A stretch of 42,333 nt of DNA from Betaproteobacteria bacterium (GTDB lineage: Bacteria; Pseudomonadota; Gammaproteobacteria; Burkholderiales; Ga0077523): the NCBI GenBank assembly GCA_025350245.1, contig JANXYG010000156.1, positions 1 to 42,333 on the forward strand, in the 5' to 3' direction. Each line of letters starts with the position of its first letter. Position 1 is the stretch's first letter. The notes beneath the pieces are model-generated. The model had not been told where the DNA came from, did not search any database, and was given only the letters and a program-made list of their open reading frames with translations. Positions 24,952-41,333 of the stretch are shown here, one piece after another. The position numbers and the translations under genes are program-made.

Positions 24952-25407
24952 TCATGGCCCCGCGGTTTCCTTCGCCCGCATCTTGGCGGCGATGTAGGCC
25001 GAGTCCGGCACGTACAGCAGCGCCGCGATCTTGCGGATCAAGTGCTGCTCATGGGCGTCTAGCGTGCCATCCGCATACGCCACCTGCCACATGCATTCGA
25101 TCACGCGGGCACGGTCGGCGGCGCCGAAATGGCGGTTGATGAGCGACGTGAACTGATGGAAGTCGGTGGCGCTGGCGGCCTGGGCTTCGGCGAGCCGGAT
25201 CACGGCCTCGGCGTCATCGGCGGCGAGCTTGAAGCTGCCACGCACCGCCCGCAGCACCGCTGCCCGCTCGACCGGATCGACGTTGCCGTCCATGAGCATG
25301 ACCTCGACCAGCAATGCGGCCGTAGCCACGGGGATCGGGTCGTACGTGGACGCCGACCCCGATGGAGCGATGTGCTGCTCGAAAAACTCTTTGAGAAGAT
25401 TGAACAT
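24952..25407 (-). CDS. TerB-family protein
   Basis: A 151-residue helical protein. ATAALLVEVMLMDGNVDPVERAAVLRAV (about 28-55) and MWQVAYADGTLDAHEQHLIRKIAALLYV (about 105-132) are the two halves of the TerB domain, each with acidic DG(N/T)(V/L)D.(V/H)E metal-binding-like motifs. TerB belongs to tellurite/stress systems but stand-alone copies are widespread and their role is unclear. No other ter gene is present. It follows the MFS gene by 15 bp on the minus strand. Confidence 0.9.
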   Translation of the reverse strand: MFNLLKEFFEQHIAPSGSASTYDPIPVATAALLVEVMLMDGNVDPVERAAVLRAVRGSFKLAADDAEAVIRLAEAQAASATDFHQFTSLINRHFGAADRARVIECMWQVAYADGTLDAHEQHLIRKIAALLYVPDSAYIAAKMRAKETAGP

Positions 25408-25422
25408 GGAAGTGGATGGGGA

Positions 25423-26670: not shown

Positions 26671-26756
26671 GGAGAGATTTGGAGAATGCGCAACATCAGT
26701 AGACGTTGTTTGCTGATCGGGATGGGTGCCGTCCGCGGAACGGGAAACGTCGGGCG

Positions 26757-27176
26757 TCAAACCACCGATAGCCGGATCTCGCGCCCCAGGCTGCGCGCTG
26801 CTCTTTCGAGATGTTCCATCCGGCTCGCATGATTGAGGCCGAGCAAGCGGTCGACTTGCGGCATGTGCCAGCCAAGACGGCGCGCCAACTCGGACTTCTT
26901 CACGCCCTGCACCAGCATCTCCGTGTAGATCGCCAGCTTCGCAGACTCGAGCACGCTTGGTCGAACCAGCACCTGACCGCGCTTTACCTTGCTCGGCACA
27001 GGTAGCGGTCGACGGTCGACGACATAGAAAGAGAGCGCCGATTCGAGTGCATCCACGGCATGCAGCAAGGCGTCATCACGGTCTTCACCTTGGGTGAGGG
27101 CTTCGGGCACATCCGGAAATATGACGACGAATCCGCCTTCGGGTTGCGCCACCAGTCTGGCCGGGTACTCGAACAT
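26757..27176 (-). CDS. hicB: HicB-family antitoxin
   Basis: A 139-residue antitoxin. The N-terminal partial RNase-H-like domain is clear: YPARLVAQPEGGFVVIFPDVPEALTQGEDRDDALLHAVDALESALSFYV (4-52). The C-terminal part, VLESAKLAIYTEMLVQGVKKSELARRLGWHMPQVDRLLGLNHASRMEHLERAARSLG, is a helix-turn-helix for operator binding. It appears complete. The upstream partner toxin HicA is destroyed; only a C-terminal scrap remains immediately before the start. HicB is thus an orphan here, though it could still bind DNA or counter a HicA elsewhere. Confidence 0.88.
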   Translation of the reverse strand: MFEYPARLVAQPEGGFVVIFPDVPEALTQGEDRDDALLHAVDALESALSFYVVDRRPLPVPSKVKRGQVLVRPSVLESAKLAIYTEMLVQGVKKSELARRLGWHMPQVDRLLGLNHASRMEHLERAARSLGREIRLSVV

Positions 27177-27179
27177 GGT

Positions 27180-27369
27180 TCACTTACCTTTCAGACCAAG
27201 TTGTTTCTTGATGGCCTCGACCATGCCGGTCGTCAGCTCGGAGGCATGCGACAGTCTCGCCATGAAACCTGACGACTCTGAGTATGCTGAGGATTCGACC
27301 GACGAGGATGTTGTCTCGCTCATCGACGGTGATGCGAGCGGTGTATCCCTTGTGAGACATGGTGTGCAT
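27180..27369 (-). pseudogene. Scar of HicA/HicB genes: HicB-like N-terminus joined out of frame to a HicA-like C-terminus
   Basis: From 27369 one frame reads MHTMSHKGYTARITVDERDN, then ILVGRILSI..VVRFHGETVA, which resembles the start of a second HicB-type antitoxin (the GYTARI..D..D...G.I.GI pattern). Around 27245 this similarity stops. A different frame then gives ELTTGMVEAIKKQLGLKGK and a TGA at 27180-27182, which resembles a HicA C-terminus and lies 3 bp before the intact hicB, exactly where hicA should end. The interpretation is a deletion that fused two TA remnants. The HicA assignment rests on about 19 residues and on position. Confidence 0.5.
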
Positions 27370-27419
27370 GGATCTACCTCGCTGGCCCTTCTCTCTTTCA
27401 CTTCCCCTGTGTCGTTGGC

Positions 27420-27689
27420 TCACAGTGCCTTGAGCAGTGCTTCATATTCGCGATGAGGGCCAACCCAAAACCAGATCATCGTATCGTCTTGAAGCACGCT
27501 GACGGCACGCCAACGAAGATCGACACGGACTGAGTAGATCGGGAGGCGAGAATGAACCTTCTTGAAGCGCAGGGACGGATGTGCTGGATTTGCCAGCCAC
27601 AAGCGGTATGCACTGCGTATTCTCGTTTGACGCTCGGGTGCAGCGGCGGCAAAGAGCAACCGAAATTTCTCGGTTGTGCGCGAATTCAA
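27420..27689 (-). CDS. RelE/HigB-like toxin
   Basis: An 89-residue basic protein: TEKFRLLFAAAAPERQTRIRSAYRLWLANPAHPSLRFKKVHSRLPIYSVRVDLRWRAVSVLQDDTMIWFWVGPHREYEALLKAL. The pattern F..L...V(Q)..AR.AY..W..NP.HPSL.FK.V.....YSVR....RA......D...WFWIG.H.EY..LL is that of a ParE/RelE-like toxin subgroup. Its start overlaps the stop of the upstream antitoxin gene by 4 bp. It looks complete. Target (mRNA or other) is unknown. Confidence 0.8.
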   Translation of the reverse strand: MNSRTTEKFRLLFAAAAPERQTRIRSAYRLWLANPAHPSLRFKKVHSRLPIYSVRVDLRWRAVSVLQDDTMIWFWVGPHREYEALLKAL

Positions 27690-27901
27690 AGAAGCTCGTC
27701 GAGCGATCTGGACTTGCCGGCGTTGAATTCGGCGAGCGCCTCCGCCGCCAACGACTCCAGGACGTGCCCGGAACGCGCGAATGACTGTGACCAGTGCTGC
27801 TCTGACGCGATCTCTTCGACGAGAATTGCAGCGAGAGCATCTTGCTCTTCGGGCGGCAGTTTCTCGACCTGCTCCAAAGCAGATACCAGGGCGTGTCTCA
27901 T
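27686..27901 (-). CDS. Antitoxin partner of the RelE-like toxin
   Basis: A 71-residue acidic protein, ALEQVEKLPPEEQDALAAILVEEIASEQHWSQSFARSGHVLESLAAEALAEFNAGKSRSLDELL. The KLP.EEQ..LA..L.EE...E..W...F..S...L..LA.EAL.E...G....LDEL layout is that of small antitoxins paired with RelE-like toxins in proteobacteria. It precedes the toxin with a 4-bp overlap. No DNA-binding domain is obvious, so repression of the operon may need the complex. Confidence 0.75.
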   Translation of the reverse strand: MRHALVSALEQVEKLPPEEQDALAAILVEEIASEQHWSQSFARSGHVLESLAAEALAEFNAGKSRSLDELL

Positions 27902-28020
27902 GGTGTGGGCCTTAAAAGCAAGATGTTGCCATTTTAGCGCCGCATCGCTGAACGGGCCAAATGTGGCCAGCCCCTATTCGACGACCCACTCTGGGAGCTG
28001 GGTAGTTCAGTGAGAAGCAG

Positions 28021-28347
28021 TCAAACCTCCCCTGCCCCGAACGTAGCAACAGGTACCGAGCGATTAACCGCAACCGATATGCGGAGCGTCTTGATGCGCT
28101 CGACATCATGCATCGTCGCGGCGGAAAAGTAGGACTCGCCACAGCTTCGGCACGACCACCTGGGAATCGCCTCGATGATCAGCAGCGCGTCGCCTTGGCC
28201 GAAGCTGCGCGTAACGTGCTTCCGTTGTACGTGTGCGCTGCCACAGCAGTGGCATTGGTGGCCTGCCCGACCCTCGCGCCCATCCGATCGCGCACGTTCA
28301 ACCCGCACCAGCGCCATCCTCTCGGCCTCAGTGCTACGCAACCGCAT
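28021..28347 (-). CDS. YgiT-type zinc-finger protein (MqsA N-terminal-domain-like)
   Basis: A 108-residue protein with two CxxC pairs, CHCCGS (about 33-38) and WSCRSCGESYFSA (about 64-76), followed by ERIKTLRISVAVNRSVPVATF. This is the YgiT/MqsA-type zinc-binding domain, which in antitoxins of this class contacts the toxin. The HTH half of MqsA is absent from the polypeptide but an XRE protein is encoded directly upstream; their reading frames overlap by 14 bp. Start ATG 28347 is used; an internal ATG at 28317 (MALVRVERARSDG) is possible. No MqsR- or DUF4258-type toxin gene is found next to it; about 100 bp downstream lead into the next TA pair. Confidence 0.78.
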   Translation of the reverse strand: MRLRSTEAERMALVRVERARSDGREGRAGHQCHCCGSAHVQRKHVTRSFGQGDALLIIEAIPRWSCRSCGESYFSAATMHDVERIKTLRISVAVNRSVPVATFGAGEV

Positions 28348-28594
28348 CGAGTGGAACTTCCCAGCCTGGAAAAACCAGGACGGCCGGGTGGCACTTCAAC
28401 GCATGAGCAAGAACCTTGGCCCGTTCGACACCCAGATTGACGCGGCCATTCTCGATGGCAGAGATGGTTGCCTGAGGAATGCCGGTCAGCTCGGAGAGCT
28501 GCGTCTGGTTGAGTTCTTGGAGTTCACGGAGGATGCGGACAGATTCACCAACGAAGACTTCAACACGTTTTCTTGCCGGGTGAAAGTTCTTCAT
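28334..28594 (-). CDS. XRE-family helix-turn-helix protein
   Basis: An 86-residue protein. SVRILRELQELNQTQLSELTGIPQATISAIENGRVNLGVERAKVLAHALKCHPAVLVFPGW is a full Cro/C1-type HTH domain with the conserved Q.LSE.TGI.Q.TIS.IENGR helix pair. ATG 28594 is preceded by GGAGG at good spacing. It overlaps the zinc-finger gene that follows, suggesting the two act together as a split MqsA-like or HigA-like antitoxin/repressor. Eighty-six base pairs separate it from the stop of the truncated amidohydrolase. Confidence 0.85.
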   Translation of the reverse strand: MKNFHPARKRVEVFVGESVRILRELQELNQTQLSELTGIPQATISAIENGRVNLGVERAKVLAHALKCHPAVLVFPGWEVPLDAVA

Positions 28595-28680
28595 TTCAAG
28601 GCCTCCGGTAATCGTGAGGGGGTGATCTGTACGACCTGAATCAACAGCACATGATAACCGTGGACCAAGGGCCCGCCCCT

Positions 28681-29741
28681 TCACTTCGCCAGCAAAGCCA
28701 GCAACACGGCAGCATTTGCCTTCACACCCGCCGCGATGGTCGGCAGCTCGACATGGAACTTCGGATGGTGGTTCATGTACTGCGGCATGGCGCCGCTCTT
28801 CATGAAAGCCGCCAGCACTTCCGGCTTGGCGACGCCGACTTCCATGTGCAGGATTTTGACCCCCTTCACCGGGTCGCCCAGCATCTGGAAATCCTCCGAG
28901 CCCATCTGCATCGGCAGGCCGGGATAGACGTTGTCCTCGCCCAGCGCCGCCACCAGCGCCGGGCGGGCAATCGCCACCAGGGCGTGGTCGTTGATGACCG
29001 GCGAGACGGTCTGCGTGATCGCGTAGGCCGGCATGCGATCGGCAGGCATGCCGTTGCCCACCGCGATCGCGTCGGTGACCTGCTTGACCATCGTGATCAT
29101 CTGCTCGCGCGCCTGCCGGCTGTACCAGCGCAGGCTCAGCTTGAGCTGCGCCTGGTCGGGAATGATGTTGTTGACTGTGCCGGCCTGGATGGCGCCGACG
29201 GTGAGCACCACCGGCTCGGTCTGGTCGATGCGGCGGCTGACGATGGTCTGATAGGCCATGATGGCCTGCGCGCTCATCACGATCGGATCCTTCGAGGCGT
29301 GCGGCGTCGACCCGTGGCCGCCGATGCCCTTGATGGTCACGTTGATCTGTTCCGCGCCGGCCCTGCGCCGGCCCTGCCCCATGCCGACCGAACCGGCCGG
29401 CCACACTGGATTGGTGTGCGACGCGAATACCACCGAAGGCGCCGGCACTTTCGGATATAGGCCATCGGCAACCATGGTGGCGGCGCCGTTGAAGGCTTCC
29501 TCCGCGGATTGCCCGACCACGATCAGCGTTCCCGACCATTGCGCCTTCAGTTGCGCCATGACCTTGGCGGTGCCGATCAGCCAGGTGACGTGCGCGTCGT
29601 GCCCGCAGGCGTGCATGATCCCCGAATCGATACCGTCCAGCGTCTTGCCGGTCTTGCTGCTGGCGTAGGGCAGGCCGGTTTCCTCCTTCACCGGCAAGGC
29701 GTCCATGTCGGCGCGGAACATGATCGCCGGCCCGGGGGCTC
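28681..29741 (-). pseudogene. 5'-truncated M20D-family amidohydrolase
   Basis: The reading frame carries most of an M20 amidohydrolase (hippurate-hydrolase/IAA-amino-acid-hydrolase type): FRADMDALPVKEETGLPYAS, HACGHDAHVTWLIG, VGQSAEEAFNGA, the dimerisation domain with IKGIGGHGSTPHASKDPI, and the C-terminal FQMLG..HHPKFHVE. Family members normally have 70-100 residues before GPAIMFRADMDALP, including the RR.IH.HPE motif; here similarity begins abruptly at about 29741. The remaining 346 residues could start at ATG 29721, but the lost part contributes to the catalytic-domain fold, so activity is doubtful. The frame continues without a stop into the frameshifted antitoxin gene upstream, giving an accidental 488-codon ORF (28681-30147). 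Confidence 0.75.
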
Positions 29742-29812
29742 TCAGACGCGAGGACTCGGGCGGAGATGATGCGCGATCGGGCGGGTCGATGCGGTTCAGC
29801 GAACGCCGGCCT

Positions 29813-30147
29813 CTACTTGCCCGCCACCGCCAGAAGCGCCTGCGGATTCGTTCGCGCGATGGTGAGCAGCGTCCGGGCCGCGCCGCTGGGCTGTTTCCGC
29901 CCTTGCTCCCAGCCTTGCGCGTGCGAACCGACACGCCGAGCAACGCCGCGAACTGCGACAACCCGGTTTTCTGCCGCGCCTCGGATGCAGCCGAGAACAC
30001 GACAGCCGTCTTGCCCGCCTTCATTTCCCGTATCGATTGCAGCAGATCGGCGGCAAGATCGCGCTTGGACTCATAGACTTCGAGGTCCTTCTTGCTCAGC
30101 GGCTTGGTGTTCGAGGGCACGGCAAATCCTGGCGACATCTCGGTCAA
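29813..30147 (-). pseudogene. XRE-type antitoxin with a single-base frameshift
   Basis: From ATG 30147 the frame reads KKDLEVYESKRDLAADLLQS, MKAGKTAVVFSAASEARQKTGLSQFAALLGVSVRT, the N-terminal two-thirds of a small HTH antitoxin of the RelE-partner type. At about 29918/29919 the frame breaks. One base further on, the other frame gives WEQGRKQPSGAARTLLTIAR and TNPQALLAVAGK, then TAG at 29813-29815, exactly the expected family ending. Restoring one base (RT-LQGWEQG) would yield 111 residues. The HTH also seems two residues short (GLSQFAALL for GLSQxQFAALL). No toxin gene is adjacent. A sequencing error is possible for the frameshift. Confidence 0.78.
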
Positions 30148-30180
30148 ATAGCTCGTTACTCATTTAACGTACGTGTGCCG

Positions 30181-31463
30181 CTAGAAGTCCAGATGCTTTC
30201 CACAATGCCCAATAATGATCTTCTTTTCGGCGGCGATCCATTCGAAATGGATACGTAAGGTTTCTGCCGCGCTATCCTTCACGCCATGCTTGATGTGCTT
30301 TTCCATCAACTTTGGCTGGCTTAGATAGTGGAACGTGCGGCGTTTCTTACCATCAATACTTAACGTATCTGCCTCCGAGGCCGCGTAGGCCTTAAGGCCG
30401 AACACGTTCTTGGCGTGCTGATCTCCCGTACCATCCACCAAAGCTTGCCAATAATCGGATATGACGTCGGCCCACTAGCGAAGGCAGTCGCGCTTTCTTC
30501 GTCTAGGCGCTTGACCTTGATGCCAGGAGTCTCACTAGCCGGTCGACAGAACTCCAAAATGTCCTTCACAAGTCGCGGTCTAGTAACTTGGATGGTCGCG
30601 GTGACCCGCGCGCTGATTTCGTCCGTCTTGAGCAAGACTGAACAATCAACTGGCATGCCTCGATCTTCTTGACGAAGCCCAATCTCAGTTATCCACTGGC
30701 GACCAGATACGAGAGCGTCTGCATGGACCAGCCGAGCGCAAAAATAGTATGGGTATGCTGGCTTTAGTTCGTCGTCAACAGTGGCTTTTTAACTTAGCCT
30801 ACTACCATTCTTGAACCGCATTTCCCCCACACCCTGTGCCAGTCGCGTCGGATCTACGAACGCCTGCGCTCCCCGGCCCACCCATTTAGAAACCAACTGC
30901 ACGATCTCGTCTGTCCCGTCGACCGGCTTCAGTACGAGACTGTTCGCATAAACCAGCATGTCGTTTCCTTCAACGTGAAGATGGCAACCTCGGCTTTGAA
31001 GTGCATAGCCCGAACCATGCACGGTGCGCGTGGAAGAGTGGTTAGCCTCGACTCCTTGTACAATTGGCTGCGTGGTTGTGAGGCCGTGTGTCGCGTTGGC
31101 TGTGGCTTGATATTCGGCCGATGGATATGAAGGCATTGGACTGGAAAAGCCCTGCGATTCCGTTGGCGATGCCGAGCGGAGTTTACGCAAGGGTGTCTCG
31201 CCGCCGCTCAGAACCGGGCTCGACAGCGTCTGAATCAACTTCAGGTTACCAACAAAACGTCGAGAGACCCTGCGGTGGGCGATCTGTATTGAGTACTCAG
31301 CGCCACCGTCCACAACGGCTCCTGAGAGTGCTCGTTCGGTGACCGGGCAACTGACACGTTCGGCACCCAGTAAATTTGCGAATACATCTGGTTCCGCAGT
31401 CTTGAGAACCCCGGGGTTCACTCTTTCTCTCAAACCCGAGATGCAACATTTACTGCATTGCAC
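30181..31463 (-). pseudogene. Decayed gene of unknown family, AT-richer than its surroundings
   Basis: The minus strand reads as one coding sequence interrupted twice. The first part (31463-30789) ends NDMLVYANSLVLKPVDGTDE, IVQLVSKWVGRGAQAFVDPT, RLAQGVGEMRFKNGSRLS and a TAA at 30789-30791. The same frame continues directly with KATVDDELKPAYPYYFCARL, SGRQWITEIGLRQEDRGMP and VDCSVLLKTDEISARVTATI. Near 30471-30480 the frame shifts; the new frame gives WADVISDYWQALVDGTGDQH, KKRRTFHYLSQPKLMEKHIK and HFEWIAAEKKIIIGHCGKHL before TAG at 30181. I do not recognise the family. The lack of further stops suggests recent inactivation. The 5' end is uncertain. Confidence 0.55.
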
Positions 31464-31532
31464 TCCCCGCGATCCCCACTATCATCACTCCATGACTCTG
31501 AACCTCTCCCACGTCTCCCTCGCCTCCCGCCC

Positions 31533-32507
31533 ATGGCTGACCTAGGCGACTGGGCCTTCCCCGAACCGATGCAGCCGGACCCCGGCAAGCTTGAGTTCGA
31601 CCTGCACCGCGTGCTCAACGCGGTGGTGCAGGTGCGCGCCGAGATTCCGGACGAGGCCTTCACCGCGGCGATCCTTGGCACAGAGCGCGTCGGCAACGGC
31701 GTGGTCATCCGTGACGACGGCCTGGTGCTGACCATCGGCTACCTCATCACCGAGGCGCAAACGGTGTGGCTCACGTCCAACACCGGCGCGCTGGTGGCCG
31801 GCTACCCGATGGCCTACGACTTTGCTACCGGCTTCGGGCTGGTGATGCCGATGGGGCACCTGCCCGTGCCCGCCCTGCGGCTCGGCAGCTCGGCACAGCG
31901 CGCCGTTGGTGACGACGTGATCGTGGTCGGGCACGGTGGCCGTGCGCACTCGCTCAAGGCCTCGATCTTTGCCAAGCGCGAGTTTGCCGGCTACTGGGAG
32001 TATCTGATCGATGACGCCATGTTCACCTCGCCGGGGCATCCCCAATGGGGCGGCGCGGCGGTGGTGGACAGCAACGGCGAGCTGATCGGGATCGGGTCGC
32101 TGCTGGTCGAGGAAACCGTCGACGGCGAACAGACCCAGGGCAACATGATCGTGCCGGTGGATCTGCTGCCGCCGGTGCTCGAAGCGATGCTCAGCACCGG
32201 CCAGGGTCTGTCGCCGGTGCGGCCCTGGCTCGGCATGTACATGTCGGAATCCGACAGCCAACTGGCGGTGGTGGGTATCGCGCCCGGTGGACCGGCGGAA
32301 ACCGCCGGCATTCGCCAGGGCGATCTCATCATCGAGGTGGCGGGACACCGGGTGGTCAGCCTGGCAGACCTGTTTCGTCAGATCTGGAGCCTGGGCGCAG
32401 CCGGGGTCGAGGTGCCGCTGACACTTGCCCGCAACAGTGGGCTCACCCGGGTCAAGGCGCGGTCGATCGACCGCAATGACCTGCTCTGGAAACCGCGGCT
32501 GCACTGA
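31533..32507 (+). CDS. HtrA/DegP-like S1C-family protein with PDZ domain, catalytic triad absent
   Basis: A 324-residue protein with the layout of a DegQ-type protease: a trypsin-like domain (about 25-215) and one PDZ domain (about 230-315; LAVVGIAPGGPAETAGIRQGDLIIEVAGHRVVSLADL). The catalytic positions are replaced. The site usually reading TNxHVV is GYLITEAQTV (69-78), the DLA site is ATGFGLV (about 98-104), and the GNSGGP site is GHPQWGGAA (168-176). It therefore looks proteolytically dead and may be a binding or chaperone-like protein. No signal peptide is seen from ATG 31533 (MADLGDWAFPEP), so it is probably cytoplasmic; a longer in-frame start at 31458 adds no clear signal sequence either. 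It converges with the aldo/keto reductase gene. Confidence 0.85.
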   Translation: MADLGDWAFPEPMQPDPGKLEFDLHRVLNAVVQVRAEIPDEAFTAAILGTERVGNGVVIRDDGLVLTIGYLITEAQTVWLTSNTGALVAGYPMAYDFATGFGLVMPMGHLPVPALRLGSSAQRAVGDDVIVVGHGGRAHSLKASIFAKREFAGYWEYLIDDAMFTSPGHPQWGGAAVVDSNGELIGIGSLLVEETVDGEQTQGNMIVPVDLLPPVLEAMLSTGQGLSPVRPWLGMYMSESDSQLAVVGIAPGGPAETAGIRQGDLIIEVAGHRVVSLADLFRQIWSLGAAGVEVPLTLARNSGLTRVKARSIDRNDLLWKPRLH

Positions 32508-32511
32508 TGAG

Positions 32512-32608
32512 CTTCCCTCACCCTCGATCCTTCCCGGCACCACTACTGCGCTTCCCTCACCCTCGATCCCTCTCCCGGGGGAGAGGGAGGACTACTGCTC
32601 CCCCTGCG
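32512..32608. repeat. Dispersed hairpin repeat (family B) between convergent genes
   Basis: Two copies of a CTTCCCTCACCCTCGATCC block are followed by CTCTCCCGGGGGAGAGGGA, a strong stem, and an ACTACTGCTCC segment shared with the copy at 41144-41333. It lies between the S1C gene stop and the aldo/keto reductase stop, where it could act as a bidirectional terminator. Confidence 0.8.
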
Positions 32609-32609
32609 G

Positions 32610-33464
32610 CTACGCCATCGCCAACCGCTGCTTCCTTTTCGGCGGTGCAAACGTGGCGTCGATCTCAGCGAGATCGGCTTCAGTAAGCGCAATCTCCGCG
32701 GCAGCCAGGTTGTCGCGCAGGTGCGCTTCACCCACCGCTTTCGGAATCGCGATCACGTCGGGCTGGCGCATCACCCACGCGAGCGCGGCTTGCGCGGCCG
32801 AGACGCCGTGGCGCTTGCCCACCCGCGCAAAGGTCGGGTCGGTGGCGAGCGCGCCCTGGTCGATAGGGCAGTAGGCCATGGTGGGAATGGCCCGCTGGCG
32901 CTGCCAGCCGAGCAGGTCGAACTCGATGCCGCGCTCGCTGGCCGAGTAGTACACCTGGTTGGCGGCGCAACGCTCGCCGCCTTTGGCCTTGGCCAGCGCC
33001 TGCATCTGCGCCACGTCGAAGTTGCTCACGCCCCAGGCACCGATACGGCCGGCGGCCTCGAGCGCTTCGAACGCGGCCACGGTATCGGCCAGCGGATGCT
33101 GCCCCGGCCAGTGCAGCAGATAGAGATCGGCGCGGTCGATGCCGAGGCGCGCGAGGCTGCGCTCGCAGGCGGCAACGGTGCTTTTGCGGCTGGCGTTGTG
33201 CGGGTAGACCTTGGTCACCACGAACACCTCTTCACGGCGCACGGTGCGATCCGCGATGGCGGCGGCGAGTGCCGCCCCCACCACTTCTTCGGCGCCGCCT
33301 TCGCCATACATCTCGGCGGTGTCGATCAGGCGATAGCCTATTTCCAGGGCCAGGCGCACGGCGGTGATCTCGCGCTTGCGCTGCCCCGCTTCTTCGCCCA
33401 TGCGCCAGGTGCCCAGGCCCAGCGCCGGCACTCTCACACCGTTCGGCAGGCCGACCGTCTTCAT
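32610..33464 (-). CDS. Aldo/keto reductase
   Basis: A 284-residue NADPH-dependent aldo/keto reductase. The catalytic tetrad is visible: D48 and Y53 in LIDTAEMYGEG, K85 in VVTKVYPHN and H118 in LYLLHWPG. The cofactor-binding end has IPKAVGEAHLRDNLAAAEIAL. It resembles the YeaE/2,5-diketo-gluconate-reductase-like group; the substrate is unknown. Its ATG at 33464 overlaps the stop of the iclR gene by 4 bp, so before the IS insertion it was probably translated from the regulator's transcript. The IS may now alter its expression. Confidence 0.92.
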   Translation of the reverse strand: MKTVGLPNGVRVPALGLGTWRMGEEAGQRKREITAVRLALEIGYRLIDTAEMYGEGGAEEVVGAALAAAIADRTVRREEVFVVTKVYPHNASRKSTVAACERSLARLGIDRADLYLLHWPGQHPLADTVAAFEALEAAGRIGAWGVSNFDVAQMQALAKAKGGERCAANQVYYSASERGIEFDLLGWQRQRAIPTMAYCPIDQGALATDPTFARVGKRHGVSAAQAALAWVMRQPDVIAIPKAVGEAHLRDNLAAAEIALTEADLAEIDATFAPPKRKQRLAMA

Positions 33465-33844
33465 CGGCGTTGCAGCAACGCGCTGATGCGATCGGCCGAC
33501 TCGCGCAGCGGCGGCAGCAGTTTCTTCACCATCTGCGGCGGCGAGGTGCGGTTGGCCTGGCCGCTGATGTTCATGGCGGCGATGATGCGCTGGTTGCGAT
33601 CGCGGATCGGCGCGCTGATCGACACCAGGCCTTCTTCCAGCTCCTGGTTGACCATGGCCCAGCCCTTGTCGCGCACCTCACGGATCGCCTGCAGCAGTTC
33701 GGCTTTGTCGGTGACGGTGCGGCCGGTGCGCGGGCGCAGGTCGGACTTGCGCAAGATGGCGTTGATGCCGGCGTCGTCGAGGTCCGACAGCAACACCCGG
33801 CCCATCGAGGTACAGAACGCCGGCAGCCGGCTGCCTATCCCTAA
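33461..33844 (-). pseudogene. IclR-family regulator (PcaR-like), C-terminal part, cut off by an IS
   Basis: In frame from the IS edge this reads IGSRLPAFCTSMGRVLLSDL, then NQELEEGLVSISAPIRDRNQRIIAAMNISGQANRT and ISALLQRR, the ligand-binding half of an IclR regulator. GSRLPAFCTSMGRVLL is conserved in PcaR/PobR/CatR-type activators of aromatic catabolism. The other half lies at 35952-36393. Removing the IS and one CTAA copy restores a continuous frame of 273 codons plus stop (442 + 380 bp). As it stands, the DNA-binding domain is separated and the regulator should be inactive. Confidence 0.9.
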
Positions 33845-35951
33845 CCCAAGTTTGTCAACTTTTGGCCCATTTCCCTATCTCGTCGGCCGCTAACCCGCAT
33901 GGATGCTGGGGGTCGCTTCAAAAGTGAAATGTAGTGCCATAATAGTTTTTGGCAAATGATCTTTTACCCGCGTTTTCGTGCAGCATCTGCCGATGTTTAT
34001 CCGCCGCACCCAAACCCGCAATCGCACCTCCGGCCAGCCCTACACCACCCACCGCCTGGTGCAAAGCGTTCGCGTGGGCAGCGCCGTCAGGCAAGTCACG
34101 CTGCTCAACCTGGGCAGTCACTTCGATCTGCCGCAGAGCGAGTGGCCGGCGCTGGCCCAGCGCATCGATGAGCTGCTGCGCGGGCAGTCCGCGTTTCCCG
34201 ATCCAACGCTGTCGGACGCAGGGCAAGCCCTCGCGCAGCGCTATGCGGCGCAGTTGATCGCGATGAAGCCCTCGGCGGCGAGCATCACGGCCCGTGAGGC
34301 CGCCCAGCCGGACCCCGGCGAGCCTGGCCGATACCAGGAGGTCGATCTTGATTCCCTCGATCTGGTGCGCCCGCGCAGCGTGGGCGTCGAACATGCGGCG
34401 CTCTCGGTGATGCGCAGTTGCGGCTTCGAGGACAAGCTGGGCGCGCTGGGCTTGAACCGCCCGCAGATCGCGGCCGCCGTGGGCAACATCATCGGCCGCA
34501 TGGCACACCCGGGCAGCGAGCTTGCCACGCACGCGTGGCTGCAGCAGCGCTCGGCCTTGGGTGAGTTGCTCGGCTTCGACTTCGAGGCGATGGATCTGAA
34601 CCGCCTGTACCGCGCCTCCGACGCGCTGTACAAGCACCGCGAGGCCTTGCAGGACCATCTGTTCGCGCAGGCGCAGACCCTCTTCGGCTTCGGCGAGACG
34701 ATCACCCTGTACGACCTCACCAACACCTACTTCGAAGGCGTCGCCGCTGGCGTGAGCAAGGCCAAGCGCGGGCACAGCAAGGAGTCCCGCAGCGACTGCC
34801 CGCTGGTGACCCTGGCCATGGCGCTGGACGGCAGCGGGTTCCCGCGCCGCAGCCGGGTGTTTGCCGGCAATGCCAGCGAGCCCGCCACGCTCAAGGACAT
34901 GCTCACGGGCCTGGGCGCACCGAGCGGTGCCACGGTGGTGATGGATGCGGGTATCGCCACCGAGGCCAACCTGGCGTGGCTCAGGGCCCAGGGCTACCAC
35001 TACGTGGTGGTGTCACGCTTGCGCGAGCGCCAGTTTGATCCGGCGCTCGCCACCGAGGTGCAGTCGGCCGGCCAGGTGACGATCAAGATCCAGCGCGTGC
35101 TCGACGAGCACGGCCACGCGCTGCTGTACTGCCACTCGCCGGCACGCGAACAAAAGGACCGCGCCATCGATGCGGCCAAGGCGGCCGGCTTCGAGGCGGT
35201 GTTGCTCAAGCTGGTGGCGGGCCTGAGCAAGCCCCGCGGGACCCGGGACCTGGCCAAGATCATGGAGCGGCTCGGACGCGCCAAGCAGCGCTACGCGCGT
35301 GCGGCGCAGCACTATCAGGTCGAACTCACCAAGGACGACACCGGCACGCAGGTGAACTCCATCACATGGACCCAGCGCATCAAGCCCGGCAGCGCGGCCA
35401 TGCACCCGGGTGTGTATTGCCTGCGCACGACCCTCGTGGAGTTGGACAACGCCACGCTGTGGCGCACCTACACGATGCTGACCAACCTCGAGTCGGTGTT
35501 CCGCTCGCTCAAGACCGACCTGGGCCTGCGCCCCGTCTTCCACCAGATCGACCGCCGGGTCGAAGGCCATCTGTTCATCAGCGTACTGGCCTACCACTTC
35601 GTGCACACGCTGCGCCTGCAACTCAAGGACCAAGGTATCGACGACAGCTGGACGACTGTGCGCGAGACACTTGCCACGCAGCGGCGCGTGACGGCCACCT
35701 TGCAGCGCCGCGATGGCCGCACCGTGCATGTGCGTAAGGCCACACGGCCCGAGCCGCATCACCAAACGATCAACCAGATCCTGGGCCACTCGCCCAACCC
35801 TGGCGGCACCCACCGCGTGCTCGTCTAGCGCGATCTCATCGACCGACCCAGAGCCGCGCCGTGCGACACAAAAGTAGTGCCATACGCGCCGCAATACCCG
35901 CCTAAGTCAAGGATTCCATTGATGGTCGTAGTGCCAAATGACAAACTTGGG
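33845..35951 (+). mobile_element. IS1634-like insertion sequence inserted in iclR
   Basis: The 2107-bp element is bounded by 13-bp perfect inverted ends, CCCAAGTTTGTCA at 33845-33857 and its complement at 35939-35951. It is flanked by a CTAA direct repeat (33841-33844 and 35952-35955), taken as the target duplication. One transposase gene fills it. The motif GTAGTGCCA recurs as direct copies inside both ends (near 33932, 35874 and 35928), which could be transposase-binding sites. Boundaries rest on the restored iclR frame and the inverted ends. Confidence 0.88.
33993..35828 (+). CDS. IS1634/IS4-group DDE transposase
   Basis: A transposase of about 611 residues that cuts and joins the element ends. 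The first catalytic aspartate is in TLYDLTNTYFEG (about D241), the second in VVMDAGIATEANLAWL, and the glutamate in the Y-(2)-R-(3)-E-(6)-K-like TNLESVFRSLKTDLGLRPV. HISVLAY-like FISVLAYHFVHTLR near the C-terminus is also typical. The start MFIRRTQTRNRTSGQPY at 33993 matches family starts; an ATG at 33978 would add five residues. It appears complete and may be active. Confidence 0.92.
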   Translation: MFIRRTQTRNRTSGQPYTTHRLVQSVRVGSAVRQVTLLNLGSHFDLPQSEWPALAQRIDELLRGQSAFPDPTLSDAGQALAQRYAAQLIAMKPSAASITAREAAQPDPGEPGRYQEVDLDSLDLVRPRSVGVEHAALSVMRSCGFEDKLGALGLNRPQIAAAVGNIIGRMAHPGSELATHAWLQQRSALGELLGFDFEAMDLNRLYRASDALYKHREALQDHLFAQAQTLFGFGETITLYDLTNTYFEGVAAGVSKAKRGHSKESRSDCPLVTLAMALDGSGFPRRSRVFAGNASEPATLKDMLTGLGAPSGATVVMDAGIATEANLAWLRAQGYHYVVVSRLRERQFDPALATEVQSAGQVTIKIQRVLDEHGHALLYCHSPAREQKDRAIDAAKAAGFEAVLLKLVAGLSKPRGTRDLAKIMERLGRAKQRYARAAQHYQVELTKDDTGTQVNSITWTQRIKPGSAAMHPGVYCLRTTLVELDNATLWRTYTMLTNLESVFRSLKTDLGLRPVFHQIDRRVEGHLFISVLAYHFVHTLRLQLKDQGIDDSWTTVRETLATQRRVTATLQRRDGRTVHVRKATRPEPHHQTINQILGHSPNPGGTHRVLV

Positions 35952-36393
35952 CTAAGCTGATGGTCATGATCTTGGAGGTGGGGATGCGCAGCACATAGAC
36001 GATGTCGGGGCCGTCGAGCACGCTGGCGGAGCACGACTCGTGCACCTCGCTCACCAGCGCTTCCATGATCGGCTCGGCCAGATTCCAGAACGGCATCGAC
36101 GACAGATAGGCGAAGCCGAGTTCGAGAATGCGCGCGGTGAGGTGAAACTGACGCCCGTCAACCGCCACATAGCCGAGTTGCACCAGGGTGAGCAGGATGC
36201 GGCGGGCGCCGGCGCGGGTGATGCCCGCGGCTTCGGCCACTTCCGACAAGGTCATGGAAGGGTGGGCGCTGTCGAAAGCGCGGATCACCGCCAGCCCGCG
36301 TGCGAACGACTGCACGTAACCGTCGCCGGGCCGGGTGTCCTGGTCCGCGGGCGATGATTCCTGAACGTCGCCTTCCACCGTCTGCATCTCCAT
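35952..36393 (-). pseudogene. IclR-family regulator (PcaR-like), N-terminal part
   Basis: Reads MEMQTVEGDVQESSPADQDT, then YVQSFARGLAVIRAFDSAHPSMTLSEVAEAAGITRAGARRILLTLVQLGYV, the IclR winged helix, and LDGPDIVYVLRIPTSKIMTIS before the IS. ATG 36393 is chosen because AGGAG lies 8 bp upstream; GTG 36444 would add 17 residues. In its present state the frame runs 9 codons into the IS beyond the duplicated target. The free HTH domain might still be made. The gene is divergent from the hydroxyquinol operon, the standard place for its activator. Confidence 0.9.
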
Positions 36394-36478
36394 CGGCCTC
36401 GCTCCTGGCCCGCACTCTCTCGTCAAATCATGCGATAAGTTCACGATACGAACAAGCGTTCTGATGGCGAAACAATGC

Positions 36479-36631: not shown

Positions 36632-37141
36632 ATGTCCCAGTTCACCACGGTGTTCGGGTCGCTCTCGTCATACGAGAAGGGCCCGCTGACCATCATCAAC
36701 GACAACCCCGAGTACTACTGCCACTCGAATGTCTTCGAGGTAGCCTCCAGAGCCAAGCCATACGAGAAGGTCGCCGTCGCCAAGAACCTCGAATACGTCA
36801 TCGAGGCCATCCGCGCCGAAGGCACTTCCGACTGGTTCACCGCCGGGCACGACGAGTTCGTGCTGGTGATGGACGGCGAAGTCCCCGTCTCGTTCGTGGA
36901 GCCGGCAACGCCGCCGACCATCAAGGGCGACGGCACGGTGCGCCTCGCGAGCGCACCCGGCGGATAACCGATGGGCAGGATTCACCTCGAGCGCGGTCAC
37001 CAGGCGCTGCTGCCGAAGGGCGCCGCCTACCAGTTCAGCGCGGCACGCCCCGGCGTCATGTTGCAACAGACCCTCGTCGGCGATCTCACGGTCCAGAAAT
37101 GGGCCGAGATCTGCACCCCTGATCGCCCTGGAGACTCCGCC
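36632..37141 (+). pseudogene. Cupin-like small protein gene interrupted by a stop codon
   Basis: ATG 36632 follows a strong GGAGGAGG site. The first 111 codons read MSQFTTVFGSLSSYEKGPLT, VFEVASRAKPYEKVAVAKNL and WFTAGHDEFVLVMDGEVPVS, a cupin-like beta fold with H..F...MDG. A TAA at 36965-36967 follows APGG; the same frame then resumes PMGRIHLERGHQALLPKGAAYQF..ARPGVMLQQTLVGDLTVQKWAEIC, which completes the cupin barrel. One A-to-T change in a lysine codon would explain the stop. The exact role is unknown to me; its place at the head of a hydroxyquinol operon suggests an aromatic-pathway accessory or ring-modifying function. The frame has no stop before the next gene. Confidence 0.7.
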
Positions 37142-37472
37142 ATGGCAATGCTCGAGACCGTCGCACCCGCCGCACCGACCAAACCCGCGTTCAACATCGT
37201 GGTGAGCGAGCCCGATGCGCGCACCGGCTTTCGCCGCTTCGAACTCGGCCAGTTCAACGATGTTGCTGGCGCATCGCTTCGCGCGCGACATGAAGAGCGG
37301 CATGGTGGGGATCAACTGCTACCAGCGGGTCAAACCCGGTGCGCCATTCGGCGGCACCGGCAGCTCGGGCTACGGCCGCGAGATGGGGTTCGAGGTGATG
37401 CGCGAATACACCCAGGCGAAGAGCGTGTGGGTCAACGTCGATGCGCAGATTCCGCCGTACTACCCGCGATGA
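37142..37472 (+). pseudogene. Fusion scar: start of an unrecognised gene joined to the C-terminus of an aldehyde dehydrogenase
   Basis: ATG 37142 begins MAMLETVAPAAPTKPAFNIV, then VSEPDARTGFRRFELGQF, after which the sense is lost near 37255. In another frame, from about 37259, the sequence is LLAHRFARDMKSGMVGINCY, RVKPGAPFGGTGSSGYGREM and EYTQAKSVWVNVDAQIPPYY before TGA at 37470-37472, an unmistakable aldehyde dehydrogenase C-terminus. About 400 residues of dehydrogenase, with its catalytic Cys and Glu, and most of the first gene are missing. A deletion is the simplest cause. The N-terminal fragment's family is not recognised. Confidence 0.8.
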
Positions 37473-37497
37473 ACCGCGCCATCCAGGAACAGCACCC

Positions 37498-38199
37498 ATG
37501 ATCGACAAGATCGTCGCCTCCCTCGCCGCGGCGGTGGCCGATGTGCACGATGGCGCCACGGTGATGATCGGCGGCTTCGGCCCCGCCGGCCAACCGGCGG
37601 AACTCATCGATGCGCTGATCGACCAGGGCGCGCGCGACCTCACCATCGTCAACAACAACGCGGGCAACGGCGAGGTCGGCCTAGCGGCGCTGCTCAAGGC
37701 GCGGCGGGTGCGCAAGGTCATCTGCTCGTTTCCGCGCCAGACCGACTCGTACGTGTTCGACGCGCTTTATCGCAGCGGCGAGGTCGAGCTCGAACTGGTG
37801 CCGCAGGGCAACCTCGCCGAGCGCATCCGCGCTGCCGGCGCCGGCATCGGCGGCTTCTTCACCCCCACCGGGCACGGCACCTTGCTCGCCGAAGGCAAGG
37901 AGACCCGCGTCATCGACGGTCGCGCCTACGTGCTCGAGTATCCGATCCGCGCCGACTTCGCGCTCATCAAGGCGCTGGCCGGCGATCGCTGGGGCAACCT
38001 CATCTACCGCAAGACCGGCCGCAACTTCGGACCAATCATGGCCATGGCGGCGAAATGCGCGATTGCCCAAGTGCAGCGCACGGTCAGCCTCGGCGAGCTC
38101 GACCCGGAGGCGATCATCACACCGGGCATCTTCGTTCAGCGCGTGGTCGCGGTGAACGCCACGCGCGCCGACAGCGGCGACCATCAGGCCGTCGCATGA
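37498..38199 (+). CDS. pcaI: 3-oxoadipate CoA-transferase subunit A
   Basis: A 233-residue family I CoA-transferase alpha subunit. It moves CoA from succinyl-CoA to 3-oxoadipate with its partner subunit. VMIGGFGPAGQPAELIDALI near residue 24 is the family glycine-rich signature; NNNAGNGEVGLAALLKARRVRKVICSFPRQTDS and GGFFTPTGHGTLLAEGKETRVIDGR are typical of PcaI/CatI. ATG 37498 is used; the frame is open 19 codons upstream inside the dehydrogenase scar. The neighbouring pcaJ and pcaF support the 3-oxoadipate assignment over acetoacetate or other oxoacids. It looks intact. Confidence 0.92.
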   Translation: MIDKIVASLAAAVADVHDGATVMIGGFGPAGQPAELIDALIDQGARDLTIVNNNAGNGEVGLAALLKARRVRKVICSFPRQTDSYVFDALYRSGEVELELVPQGNLAERIRAAGAGIGGFFTPTGHGTLLAEGKETRVIDGRAYVLEYPIRADFALIKALAGDRWGNLIYRKTGRNFGPIMAMAAKCAIAQVQRTVSLGELDPEAIITPGIFVQRVVAVNATRADSGDHQAVA

Positions 38200-38215
38200 A
38201 CCAGGAGCCGCCAGC

Positions 38216-38872
38216 ATGAACCGCAGGTCGAGAGACCAGATCGCCGCCCGCGTGGCGCGCGACATCCCCGAAGGCGCCTACGTGAATCTCGGCATCGGCT
38301 TGCCGACGCTGGTCGCCAATCATCTGCCGCGCGAACGCGAGGTGTTCCTGCACAGCGAGAACGGGCTGCTCGGCATGGGCCCCGCGCCGGCGCCGGGCGA
38401 GGAAGATCCTGACCTCATCAACGCCGGCAAGCAGCCGGTGACCCTGCTCACCGGCGGCGCCTATTTCCATCACGCGGATTCGTTCGCGATGATGCGCGGC
38501 GGTCATCTCGACATCTGCGTGCTGGGCGCGTTCCAGGTGTCGGCAACAGGCGATCTCGCCAACTGGCACACGGGCGGACCGGACGCGATTCCGGCCGTGG
38601 GTGGCGCCATGGATCTCGCCATCGGCGCCAGGAAGGTGTTCGTGATGATGGAGCACCTGACCAAGGGCGGCGAGAGCAAGATCGTGGAGCGCTGCAGCTA
38701 TCCGCTCACCGGCATCGGTTGCGTTCATCGCATCTACACCGACCTCGCGGTGATCGACGTCACGCCGCGCGGGCTGCAAGTCATCGACGTCGCCGACGGG
38801 CTCGGGTTCGACGAACTACAGCGGCTGACGGGCGTGCGATTGCTCGCTGTCAGCGAGTCGGTCGTCGCCTGA
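38216..38872 (+). CDS. pcaJ: 3-oxoadipate CoA-transferase subunit B
   Basis: A 218-residue beta subunit carrying the catalytic glutamate in HSENGLLGMGP (E48), preceded by GAYVNLGIGLPTLVANHLP. GGAYFHHADSFAMMRGGHLDICVLGAFQVSATGDLANW and MEHLTKGGESKIVERCSYPLTG are typical of PcaJ. It starts 16 bp after pcaI and the two would form the heteromeric enzyme that activates 3-oxoadipate. It looks intact. The maleylacetate reductase remnant begins 7 bp after its stop. Confidence 0.92.
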   Translation: MNRRSRDQIAARVARDIPEGAYVNLGIGLPTLVANHLPREREVFLHSENGLLGMGPAPAPGEEDPDLINAGKQPVTLLTGGAYFHHADSFAMMRGGHLDICVLGAFQVSATGDLANWHTGGPDAIPAVGGAMDLAIGARKVFVMMEHLTKGGESKIVERCSYPLTGIGCVHRIYTDLAVIDVTPRGLQVIDVADGLGFDELQRLTGVRLLAVSESVVA

Positions 38873-38879
38873 ACGCGCA

Positions 38880-38995
38880 ATGTCGCCCTTCACCTTCCAG
38901 AGTCGTATTCGGCGCGTGCTACCGCGCACGGTGATCTACGACCCTGCTCTCACGCTCTCGCTGCCGGTGAAGCTGTCGGTCACCAGCGCGATCAA
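38880..38995 (+). pseudogene. Remnant of a maleylacetate reductase gene
   Basis: ATG 38880 opens MSPFTFQSRIRRVL, which fits the N-terminus of maleylacetate reductase (a M..F.F...RVVFG pattern). It passes directly to PRTVIYDPALTLSLPVKLSVTSAIN, which in the intact enzyme of about 350 residues lies near the end of the N-terminal domain. It then stops at the pcaF leader. Roughly 140 internal residues and the whole C-terminal metal-binding domain are missing, so two deletions are implied. The enzyme would reduce maleylacetate, the product of hydroxyquinol cleavage after tautomerisation, to 3-oxoadipate. The motif VIYDPALTL.LP..LSVTS is highly characteristic. Confidence 0.8.
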
Positions 38996-39010
38996 CCCAA
39001 GGACTGAACC

Positions 39011-40213
39011 ATGCCCGAAGCCTTCATCTGCGCCGCATTGCGCACCCCCATCGGCCGCTACGGCGGCGCACTCTCGTCGGTACGACCGGACGACCTCGGC
39101 GCCATTCCACTCAGAGCCCTGATGGAGCGTCACCCCGGCGTCGACTGGAATGCCGTCGACGACGTGGTCTTCGGCTGCGCCAACCAGGCCGGCGAAGACA
39201 ATCGCAACGTCGCACGCATGTCGCTGCTGCTGGCCGGCTTGCCGCGGGAGATTCCGGGCAGCACCATCAACCGCCTGTGCGGATCGGGCATGGACGCGGT
39301 GGGCATCGCCGCGCGCGCCATCAAGGCCGGCGAGGCCGAGTTGATGATCGCCGGCGGTGTGGAAAGCATGTCGCGGGCGCCGTTCGTGATGCCCAAGGCC
39401 GACGCGGCTTTTTCGCGCACCAACGCGGTGTTCGACACCACCATCGGCTGGCGCTTCGTGAACCCGGCCATGAAGCAGCGCTACGGCACCGACTCGATGC
39501 CGGAGACGGCCGAGAACGTCGCCGCGGATTTCGGCGTGTCGCGCGCCGACCAGGATGCCTTCGGATTTCGCTCGCAGGCACGAGCGGCGGCGGCGCAGAA
39601 GAGTGGCCGCCTCGCGAAGGAGATCGTATCGGTGACGATCCCGTCGAAGAAGGGCGATCCGGTCGTGGTGAGCGCGGACGAGCATCCGCGCGAAACCACG
39701 CTCGAGGCGCTCGCGAAGCTGAAGCCGATCGTGAAGCCCGATGGCACGGTGACCGCGGGCAATGCCTCCGGCGTGAACGATGGCGCCTGCGCCCTGATCA
39801 TCGCCAGCGAGGCCGCGGCGAAGAAGCATGGCCTGACGCCGCTCGCCCGTGTGGTGGGTGTGGCAACCGCGGGCTGCGCGCCCCGGATCATGGGTATCGG
39901 CCCGGTGCCGGCGACGCAAAAACTTCTCGCCCGCCTCGGCCTCGGCCAGAAACAGATCGACGTCATCGAACTCAACGAGGCGTTCGCCGCGCAGGGTCTC
40001 GCCGTACTGCGACAGCTCGGCATCGCCGACGACGACCCGCGCGTGAACCCGAACGGCGGCGCGATCGCGCTCGGCCACCCGCTCGGCATGAGCGGGGCAC
40101 GGCTGGTGGCCACCGCGACGCACGAGGTGCTCGAGCGCAAGGCGCGTTACGCGCTCACCACCATGTGCATCGGCGTCGGTCAGGGCATCGCCGCCATCAT
40201 CGAGAGGATCTGA
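39011..40213 (+). CDS. pcaF: 3-oxoadipyl-CoA thiolase
   Basis: A 400-residue thiolase that cleaves 3-oxoadipyl-CoA to acetyl-CoA and succinyl-CoA. GCANQAGEDNRNVARMSLLLAGLP is the PcaF-type signature; the nucleophile is C90 in INRLCGSGMDAVG, with GGVESMSRAPFVMPKA, NEAFAAQGLAVLRQLGI, NPNGGAIALGHPLGMSGARL and CIGVGQGIA completing the active site. Length is normal and the frame clean. It lies directly downstream of the maleylacetate reductase scar, and its stop is 2 bp before the dioxygenase start. Confidence 0.94.
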   Translation: MPEAFICAALRTPIGRYGGALSSVRPDDLGAIPLRALMERHPGVDWNAVDDVVFGCANQAGEDNRNVARMSLLLAGLPREIPGSTINRLCGSGMDAVGIAARAIKAGEAELMIAGGVESMSRAPFVMPKADAAFSRTNAVFDTTIGWRFVNPAMKQRYGTDSMPETAENVAADFGVSRADQDAFGFRSQARAAAAQKSGRLAKEIVSVTIPSKKGDPVVVSADEHPRETTLEALAKLKPIVKPDGTVTAGNASGVNDGACALIIASEAAAKKHGLTPLARVVGVATAGCAPRIMGIGPVPATQKLLARLGLGQKQIDVIELNEAFAAQGLAVLRQLGIADDDPRVNPNGGAIALGHPLGMSGARLVATATHEVLERKARYALTTMCIGVGQGIAAIIERI

Positions 40214-40215
40214 TC

Positions 40216-41070
40216 ATGACCGCGTCCACCGGGCAGAGCCTGACCGACGCGGTACTCGCCACCTTCCGCGACGCGGGAGACGCGCGGTTCAGGCAGATCA
40301 TGAGCAGCCTGGTGCGGCACCTGCACGGCTTCGTGCGCGACACCGAACTCACCGAGGCCGAATGGTTTGCCGCGATCCGCTTTCTCACCGCCACCGGCCA
40401 GAAGTGCGACGACAAACGGCAGGAGTACATCCTGCTCTCCGACACCCTGGGCGTATCGATGCTGGTCGACGCGATCAACCACCGCAAGCCGGGTGGCGCC
40501 ACCGAGACCACGGTGTTCGGGCCGTTCTATCTTCCCGGTTCGGCGTCGCTACCGATGTGGAGCGACATCGCTAACGGCTGCGCCGGCGAGCCCTGCTACA
40601 TCAACGGCCGCGTGCTCGACGTGAATGGCCGGCCGATCCCCGGCGCGACGCTCGACATCTGGCAGACCGATGGTGACGGCTGGTACGACGTGCAGAAGCC
40701 GGATGCGGCGTTCGCCCGCGGCAAGCTGACGACCGATGGCGAAGGCCGGTTCGGCTTTCGTACCGTGAAGCCGGTGAGCTACCCGATCCCGACCGACGGC
40801 CCCGTCGGCGAGATGCTGGGCGCGATGGGACGGCATCCCTACCGGCCAGCCCATGTGCATGCGATCGTTTCCGCGCCGGGATATCAGGCGGTCACCACCC
40901 ACGTCTTCGTGGCTGGCGACCCCTACCTGGGATCGGACGCCGTGTTCGGGGTCAAGGATTCGCTGGTCACGGCGTTCACGGCTCATCCTGCCGGCACGGC
41001 TCCGGACGGCAAGCCGTGCGCCGTTTCCTTTCACACGGCACAGTACGAGTTTCGTCTGGTAAAGGAGTAA
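40216..41070 (+). CDS. Intradiol ring-cleavage dioxygenase, probable hydroxyquinol 1,2-dioxygenase
   Basis: A 284-residue non-haem Fe(III) dioxygenase. The N-terminal helical dimerisation domain (about 10-95) is followed by FGPFYLPGS and the catalytic domain. Iron ligands are Y157 (DGWYDVQ), Y189 (SYPIPTDGP), H213 and H215 (RPAHVHAIVS), in the expected spacing. The GWYDVQ pattern and length favour hydroxyquinol 1,2-dioxygenase over catechol 1,2-dioxygenase, and the maleylacetate reductase remnant in the same operon agrees, since hydroxyquinol cleavage yields maleylacetate. It follows pcaF after 2 bp. It looks intact, but its product can no longer be processed by this operon. Confidence 0.88.
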   Translation: MTASTGQSLTDAVLATFRDAGDARFRQIMSSLVRHLHGFVRDTELTEAEWFAAIRFLTATGQKCDDKRQEYILLSDTLGVSMLVDAINHRKPGGATETTVFGPFYLPGSASLPMWSDIANGCAGEPCYINGRVLDVNGRPIPGATLDIWQTDGDGWYDVQKPDAAFARGKLTTDGEGRFGFRTVKPVSYPIPTDGPVGEMLGAMGRHPYRPAHVHAIVSAPGYQAVTTHVFVAGDPYLGSDAVFGVKDSLVTAFTAHPAGTAPDGKPCAVSFHTAQYEFRLVKE

Positions 41071-41143: not shown

Positions 41144-41333
41144 TGGCCCACAACAGCGCAACCCGGCAATCAACGCGCGGGTTTCCCTCATCCCCAGCCC
41201 TCCCCGGAGGGAGAAGGGAGCAGGAGGCATTCCTTCTCCGGGAGCAGTAGTCCTCCCTCTCCCCCGGCGGGAGAAGGGAGCAGTAGTCCTCCCTCTCCCC
41301 CCGGGAGAGGGACCGAGGGTGAGGGAAGCTGCA
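41144..41333. repeat. Dispersed hairpin repeat (family B), inverted copy of the one at 5440-5625
   Basis: The left end (41144-41189) is close to the reverse complement of 5581-5625, and the right end (GGACCGAGGGTGAGGGA) is that of the start of the other copy. In between, CTCTCCCCCCGGGAGAGGG and other GGGAGAAGGGAGCAG.AG.C blocks replace the 28-bp tandem units. It lies downstream of the dioxygenase gene and may help end its transcript. Confidence 0.85.

Follow-up and report, generated by a model that had tools for sequence, protein, structure and literature searches.

What is kept, and for what use, when a catabolic operon loses part of its genes? The question is raised by a gene block on the plus strand at positions 36632-41070 of contig C59 of a Betaproteobacteria bacterium (Burkholderiales), composed of a 163-codon first gene, the start of a large-subunit gene, the end of an aldehyde dehydrogenase gene, pcaI, pcaJ, pieces of a maleylacetate reductase (MAR) gene, pcaF and an intradiol dioxygenase gene. 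The whole contig (42,333 bases) was analysed and is here called the window; it is one of the 156 contigs of a draft genome (3.99 Mb, 95.8% complete). Our analysis makes it quite probable that the locus is an eroding operon for the conversion of hydroquinone and hydroxyquinol to 3-oxoadipate, probably vertically inherited, in which pcaI, pcaJ and pcaF are kept for protocatechuate and the dioxygenase is a remainder.

An initial annotation, made from the sequence alone, had described a hydroxyquinol/3-oxoadipate operon decaying gene by gene. The lesions that it named (a regulator cut by an insertion sequence, IS; a TAA in the first gene; a truncated aldehyde dehydrogenase; scraps of MAR) are all present in the sequence, and pcaI, pcaJ, pcaF and the dioxygenase, which it took to be intact, proved to be full length when compared with relatives. 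It was right about the hydroxyquinol genes but missed that they were combined with hydroquinone genes, as indicated by the Protein Data Bank (PDB) matches of the first gene and of a related large subunit (L066). It also overlooked a 38-codon scrap of the large subunit and did not notice that a further six to eight operon genes are missing. In the comparisons the own genome is labelled G000, relatives G001 onwards, and loci or stretches L001 onwards. The features of the locus are:

33461-33841, minus strand: C-terminal half of an IclR/PcaR-type regulator, left of the IS, ending at its own stop; ~80% to the L141 and L143 regulators (tblastx)
33842-35954, plus strand: IS1634-family element inside the regulator; transposase at 33978-35828 (NF033559, 288 bits against a cut-off of 100)
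35955-36444, minus strand: N-terminal half of the regulator; TIGR02431 (pcaR_pcaU) 170.9 bits over 124 of 248 positions, the full-length cut-off being 284.75
36632-37120, plus strand: hydroquinone dioxygenase small subunit, broken; 163 codons, with a TAA at 36965-36967 (codon 112)
37142-37255, plus strand: hydroquinone dioxygenase large subunit, cut after its first 38 codons by a deletion; collinear with L143, L141 and L140
37269-37472, plus strand: last 67 codons and stop of an aldehyde dehydrogenase; 83-88% DNA identity to L143/L140, PF00171 50.8 bits
37498-38199, plus strand: pcaI, intact, 233 codons; TIGR02429 384.9 bits (scored without its first residue)
38216-38872, plus strand: pcaJ, intact; TIGR02428 310.7 bits
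38880-38996, plus strand: MAR remnant, about 10 N-terminal codons fused in frame to an internal piece of about 29 codons
38996-39010, plus strand: last three codons and stop of a lost permease gene, plus spacer, upstream of pcaF; CCCAAGGACTGAACC
39011-40213, plus strand: pcaF, intact; TIGR02430 707 bits
40216-41070, plus strand: hydroxyquinol 1,2-dioxygenase, full length; PF04444 and PF00775 above cut-off, placing it in the catechol/hydroxyquinol type

Comparison with operons of the same genus

A search of 150 relatives with the dioxygenase gave matches in 53, many of which were weak and fell on protocatechuate dioxygenases; at least 63% identity was found in 10 genomes, the own one included. 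When the dioxygenase was compared with the contigs of named genomes, the best 80 of 126 loci were kept. The operons of three same-genus genomes, G008, G009 and G010 (L140-L143), hold the same genes in the same order as the window. Their full order is a regulator on the opposite strand, small subunit, large subunit, Rieske-domain gene (PF00355, by a scan restricted to L143), aldehyde dehydrogenase, pcaI, pcaJ, MAR, a block of genes for an ABC transporter, pcaF, a flavoprotein, a cytochrome c and the hydroxyquinol dioxygenase. The operon is complete on one contig in G010 and divided between two contigs in G008, while the G009 contig starts within the small subunit, so that the minus-strand regulator was seen in G008 and G010 only. 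In contrast to the window, the genes for the small subunit (compared in G008 and G010), large subunit, aldehyde dehydrogenase and MAR are free of stops in these genomes, which also carry the additional Rieske-domain, transporter, flavoprotein and cytochrome c genes. Four transporter genes of L143 were confirmed by the scan (a binding protein, two ATPases and one permease); a fifth, read from its last codons only, ends directly before pcaF.

The block from the small subunit to the dioxygenase measures 15.4 kb in G010, compared with 4.4 kb in the window. The pieces in the window align in order with the same-genus loci at 67-90% DNA identity, which excludes a chance likeness of the fragments. The G010 operon has between six and eight genes that the window lacks: the Rieske-domain gene, five genes for the transporter and perhaps the flavoprotein and cytochrome c.

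The first gene had no match in the Pfam and NCBIfam scans and was identified by PDB comparison as the small subunit of hydroquinone dioxygenase (4zxa_A, E 3.3e-55; 5m21_A, E 1.5e-50). It is 78-79% identical to its same-genus homologues along its full length and has, besides the TAA, one base fewer than the relatives near its 3' end, where the frame reads past the position of their stop. The full-length relative of the large subunit in L066 matches the hydroquinone dioxygenase large subunit 4zxa_W (E 6e-126). With the large-subunit queries L020 and L066, tblastn (a separate program) detected this gene in L140, L141, L143, L145 and L146, L145 being matched best by the L020 query and L146 by the L066 query. 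No other large subunit was found in the own genome, in a search run without a positive control. The small-subunit match and the large-subunit scrap indicate that the locus once served the hydroquinone and hydroxyquinol routes jointly. Among the best 80 of 126 loci, L066 carries the small subunit, large subunit, aldehyde dehydrogenase, MAR and dioxygenase consecutively; L046 and L053 carry the aldehyde dehydrogenase, MAR, dioxygenase, pcaI, pcaJ and pcaF, and L046 also the end of a large subunit.

Between the large subunit and the aldehyde dehydrogenase about 2,652 bases are gone relative to L143 (G010), in one deletion. Decay gene by gene is supported, but these two losses, the first of which had gone unnoticed, form a single event. 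From its position, the aldehyde dehydrogenase would be of the 4-hydroxymuconic semialdehyde dehydrogenase type. The regulator was indeed split by the IS1634-family element, which is bounded by 16-nt inverted repeats (33842-33857 and 35939-35954), yet both of its halves are still present. A second copy of this IS was sought in window 5501-10500, which holds another 616-codon open reading frame; the comparison covered that stretch only and gave no DNA similarity.

A larger gap, of about 5,474 bases relative to L143, begins within MAR and extends as far as the final permease codons. The 15-nt sequence CCCAAGGACTGAACC of the window occurs unchanged before pcaF in L143 and L142 and with one base different in L140; it was not found at the pcaF genes of L145, L137, L138, L136, L166, L169 and L171. 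Since this permease remnant precedes pcaF, a transporter was formerly present at the window locus.

pcaF and the dioxygenase are separated by 2,302 bases in L143 and by 2 in the window. It is possible, though doubtful, that the ancestor of the window never had the flavoprotein, the cytochrome c and perhaps other genes, so that its operon was always more compact and suffered fewer losses, a history compatible with erosion. The adjacent pcaI-pcaJ-MAR-pcaF-dioxygenase genes of G080 and G111 (L137, L138) are consistent with this; the permease remnant, which matches the same-genus type only, argues against it, while on the pcaF-dioxygenase gap the evidence points neither way. The initial annotation had held that relatives with the same compact operon and a functional pathway would speak against decay. 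G080 and G111 have this form, with the order of the genes that survive in the window, but their MAR is intact, so they do not rescue the window operon. No hydroquinone dioxygenase genes were found in their compact stretches.

The flavoprotein, which in same-genus operons lies with a small cytochrome c between pcaF and the dioxygenase (L006, 5783-7964), closely resembles a cyclohexanone dehydrogenase of Alicycliphilus (8am3, E 5e-263). Both genes also lie upstream of the hydroxyquinol dioxygenase in G034 and G075.

Maleylacetate reductase and the hydroxyquinol dioxygenase

The MAR remnant contains a 33-residue piece with 76% identity to the L066 MAR. Its internal deletion removed 131 codons in frame, between short repeats that are seen in L140 and L141 and are less exact in L143. 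A frame-shift within MAR was rejected, as the internal join keeps the frame.

As the initial annotation had proposed, another MAR copy was sought in the genome, and none was found: apart from the remnant, with its 33 residues, the MAR query matched only an alcohol dehydrogenase at 34% identity. This best iron alcohol dehydrogenase, on C36, was discarded because it scores as a 4-hydroxybutyrate dehydrogenase (NF058672, 593 bits against 500), and the other PF00465 match, on C127 (39.6 bits), did not respond to the MAR query. The flavoprotein of the same-genus operons was likewise rejected as a substitute: it was not found in the own genome, and among solved structures it is closest to the cyclohexanone dehydrogenase 8am3 (PMC10966990). 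In 17 genomes, the MAR query gave a near full-length match of 58-72% in nine; G000 and G123 had no near full-length match, though both carry the dioxygenase.

Among solved structures, the window dioxygenase is closest to PnpC (3n9t) and to the hydroxyquinol dioxygenases 8r2x and 1tmx. Its product would end at maleylacetate, a dead end, and the gene is most likely a remainder not yet lost. The genome of G123, 98% complete, carries a 68%-identical hydroxyquinol dioxygenase on C233 (L133, 1888-2730, minus strand); no other operon gene was found in the 12 kb stretch around it, and the genome had no MAR match at E 0.001.

Retention of pcaI, pcaJ and pcaF

The lower beta-ketoadipate pathway is represented in the window by pcaI, pcaJ and pcaF, all above the cut-offs of their models, of which TIGR02429 and TIGR02428 are subfamily models common to scoAB. 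The window pcaF is the only copy above cut-off in the genome, the next thiolases being 47-52% identical. Exactly one pcaF above cut-off was found in 10 of the 12 same-genus genomes searched, the own one included, and none in G001 and G011.

Genes for a protocatechuate route lie elsewhere in the own genome, with pcaH, pcaG and pcaB together on C68 and pcaC on C6; pcaH (316.8 against 296.4) and pcaC (159.1 against 155.7) score above their cut-offs. Relatives of pcaH, pcaG and pcaB adjoin in all six same-genus stretches examined, which were chosen by dioxygenase matches. Of six pcaF stretches looked at in the same genus, the three from G003, G004 and G005 have pcaI, pcaJ and pcaF side by side and no hydroquinone genes; elsewhere in its genome G003 carries a 53% dioxygenase. 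The own pcaG (L098, 8167-8628) reads as 154 codons, and the pcaG of G008-G010 aligns with it along ~165 positions at 44% identity.

The survival of pcaI, pcaJ and pcaF is most likely explained by pcaF being single in the genome and by the three genes probably serving protocatechuate-derived 3-oxoadipate. They would have been retained, most likely, for 3-oxoadipate made via pcaH, pcaG and pcaB together with pcaC. The earlier suggestion, by which the surviving genes are used in a different route that enters at 3-oxoadipate, is plausible and the best reading, given the single pcaF, with pcaH and pcaC above and pcaG and pcaB below cut-off, although pcaD is not secured. In 100,000 random placements of deletions of approximately the observed sizes, the three genes were spared in 0.8% (three deletions) or 0.1% (four deletions) of trials.

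A purpose-written codon model, with one or two ratios of nonsynonymous to synonymous rates (dN/dS) on trees of four or five taxa, was applied to the broken and intact genes. For the broken pieces with the N-terminal half of the regulator, dN/dS was 0.145 on the window branch and 0.039 elsewhere (twice the log-likelihood difference, 2dlnL, 5.45), and neutrality was not rejected (2.23). For pcaI, pcaJ and pcaF together the values were 0.050 and 0.036 (2dlnL 1.63), and neutrality was rejected (40.1).

Evidence against erosion and alternative explanations

Several observations weigh against the proposed erosion and retention. Without the regulator, the broken pieces gave 0.209 against 0.040, with a 2dlnL of 3.57 that is under the usual threshold (neutrality test 0.37), and the MAR piece alone was uninformative (0.058 against 0.015; 2dlnL 0.17; neutrality 0.11). 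All these ratios are rough, since synonymous sites on the branch are almost saturated in several genes. In the placement test the survivors were chosen after the fact, and gene limits and lengths were entered by hand. For the protocatechuate route, pcaG (92.2 against 126.25) and pcaB (273.7 against 355.75) score below cut-off, and no pcaD above cut-off was found in the genome (best candidate 136.9 against 255.85 bits); with pcaD, pcaB and pcaG under their cut-offs, the route is unproven. In the other three pcaF stretches (G002, G006 and G007) pcaF lacks a nearby pcaI or pcaJ, and a second CoA-transferase pair on C132, with a pcaJ-like subunit 54% identical, could replace pcaIJ. The right flank of the operon is unlike that of the relatives and the left flank is rearranged. 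Finally, two genes, the small subunit and the dioxygenase, show more constraint than expected, and the genome is an incomplete draft in many contigs.

The TAA-bearing small subunit is still constrained (0.005 against 0.029; 2dlnL 2.07), with neutrality rejected (15.2), which implies that its lesions are either very young or erroneous. An assembly or consensus error that made the gaps and the stop in a truly whole operon would agree with this constraint and with a draft of 156 contigs. Such an error would have to account for gaps of 0.39-5.5 kb at three or four separate places, of which one is flanked by a short direct repeat and one leaves the permease remnant before pcaF, for relic pieces that evolve faster than the intact genes, and for the lack of a second MAR or large subunit in searches of the rest of the assembly. 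It was considered very unlikely, and the sequence is probably free of assembly error.

The dioxygenase showed no relaxation (0.068 against 0.057; 2dlnL 0.12) and neutrality was rejected (18.2), which is odd for a useless gene. It may still be in use, with maleylacetate handled by an unrelated reductase or with hydroxyquinol cleavage serving as detoxification; the dioxygenase of G123, in a genome likewise lacking a MAR match, points the same way. However, the branch covers a long time before the decay, and constraint before the loss of MAR would give the same numbers; of the 10 genomes whose dioxygenase is at least 63% identical, eight have MAR, and the flavoprotein of the relatives was not found in the own genome. 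Continued use is accordingly rated unlikely. Because of the constraint and the similar state of G123 there is some room for a dioxygenase that is selected without MAR in both genomes, its maleylacetate being reduced by a non-MAR enzyme, exported or shared with neighbours, which we regard as quite unlikely.

We therefore favour an eroding operon, in which the hydroquinone branch and MAR have been inactivated by an IS insertion, a stop codon and several deletions. Vertical descent is likely but not proven, as the left-flank genes that lie near the operon in G008 are partly rearranged and the right flank differs.

Flanking regions

Window 24958-33464 corresponds to L141 59-4503 (G008), where the left-flank genes are also near the operon, with a spacing that differs by several kilobases; an aldo/keto reductase and a trypsin-like protease are in swapped order. 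To the right, a repeated stretch at 41185-41330, with CTCCCCGGAGGGAGAAGGGAGC-like units recognized by eye, lies between the operon and a porin gene. Further away, 18966-22226 encodes a protein of 1086 residues in which B12-binding, MeaB-like GTPase and methylmalonyl-CoA-mutase domains are fused.

Relation to known systems and significance

The locus resembles the pnp/hap clusters for p-nitrophenol and hydroquinone. In the pnp cluster of Burkholderia sp. SJ98 (PMC3485097), both dioxygenases, the semialdehyde dehydrogenase and MAR occur together; the likeness lies in the clustering of a two-subunit hydroquinone dioxygenase, hydroxymuconic semialdehyde dehydrogenase, MAR and hydroxyquinol (benzenetriol) dioxygenase. 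From that gene set only the hydroxyquinol dioxygenase, as predicted from its full-length gene, is intact in the window; the hydroquinone dioxygenase has an interrupted small subunit and 38 codons of the large one, and MAR is represented by remnants. A further difference from the clusters described there is that pcaI, pcaJ and pcaF sit inside the window operon. The intact operons that the initial annotation suggested looking for were found in the same genus, and relative to them the window genes are cut or interrupted, with no replacement copy found, as expected for a pseudogene operon. A title-level literature search found no described case of a hydroquinone dioxygenase or maleylacetate reductase pseudogene.

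The kind of event is ordinary catabolic gene loss, caught midway. It cautions that a dioxygenase gene alone is insufficient to call hydroxyquinol or hydroquinone degradation, and its value lies in the intact same-genus operons available for comparison, which let the part kept by selection be read.

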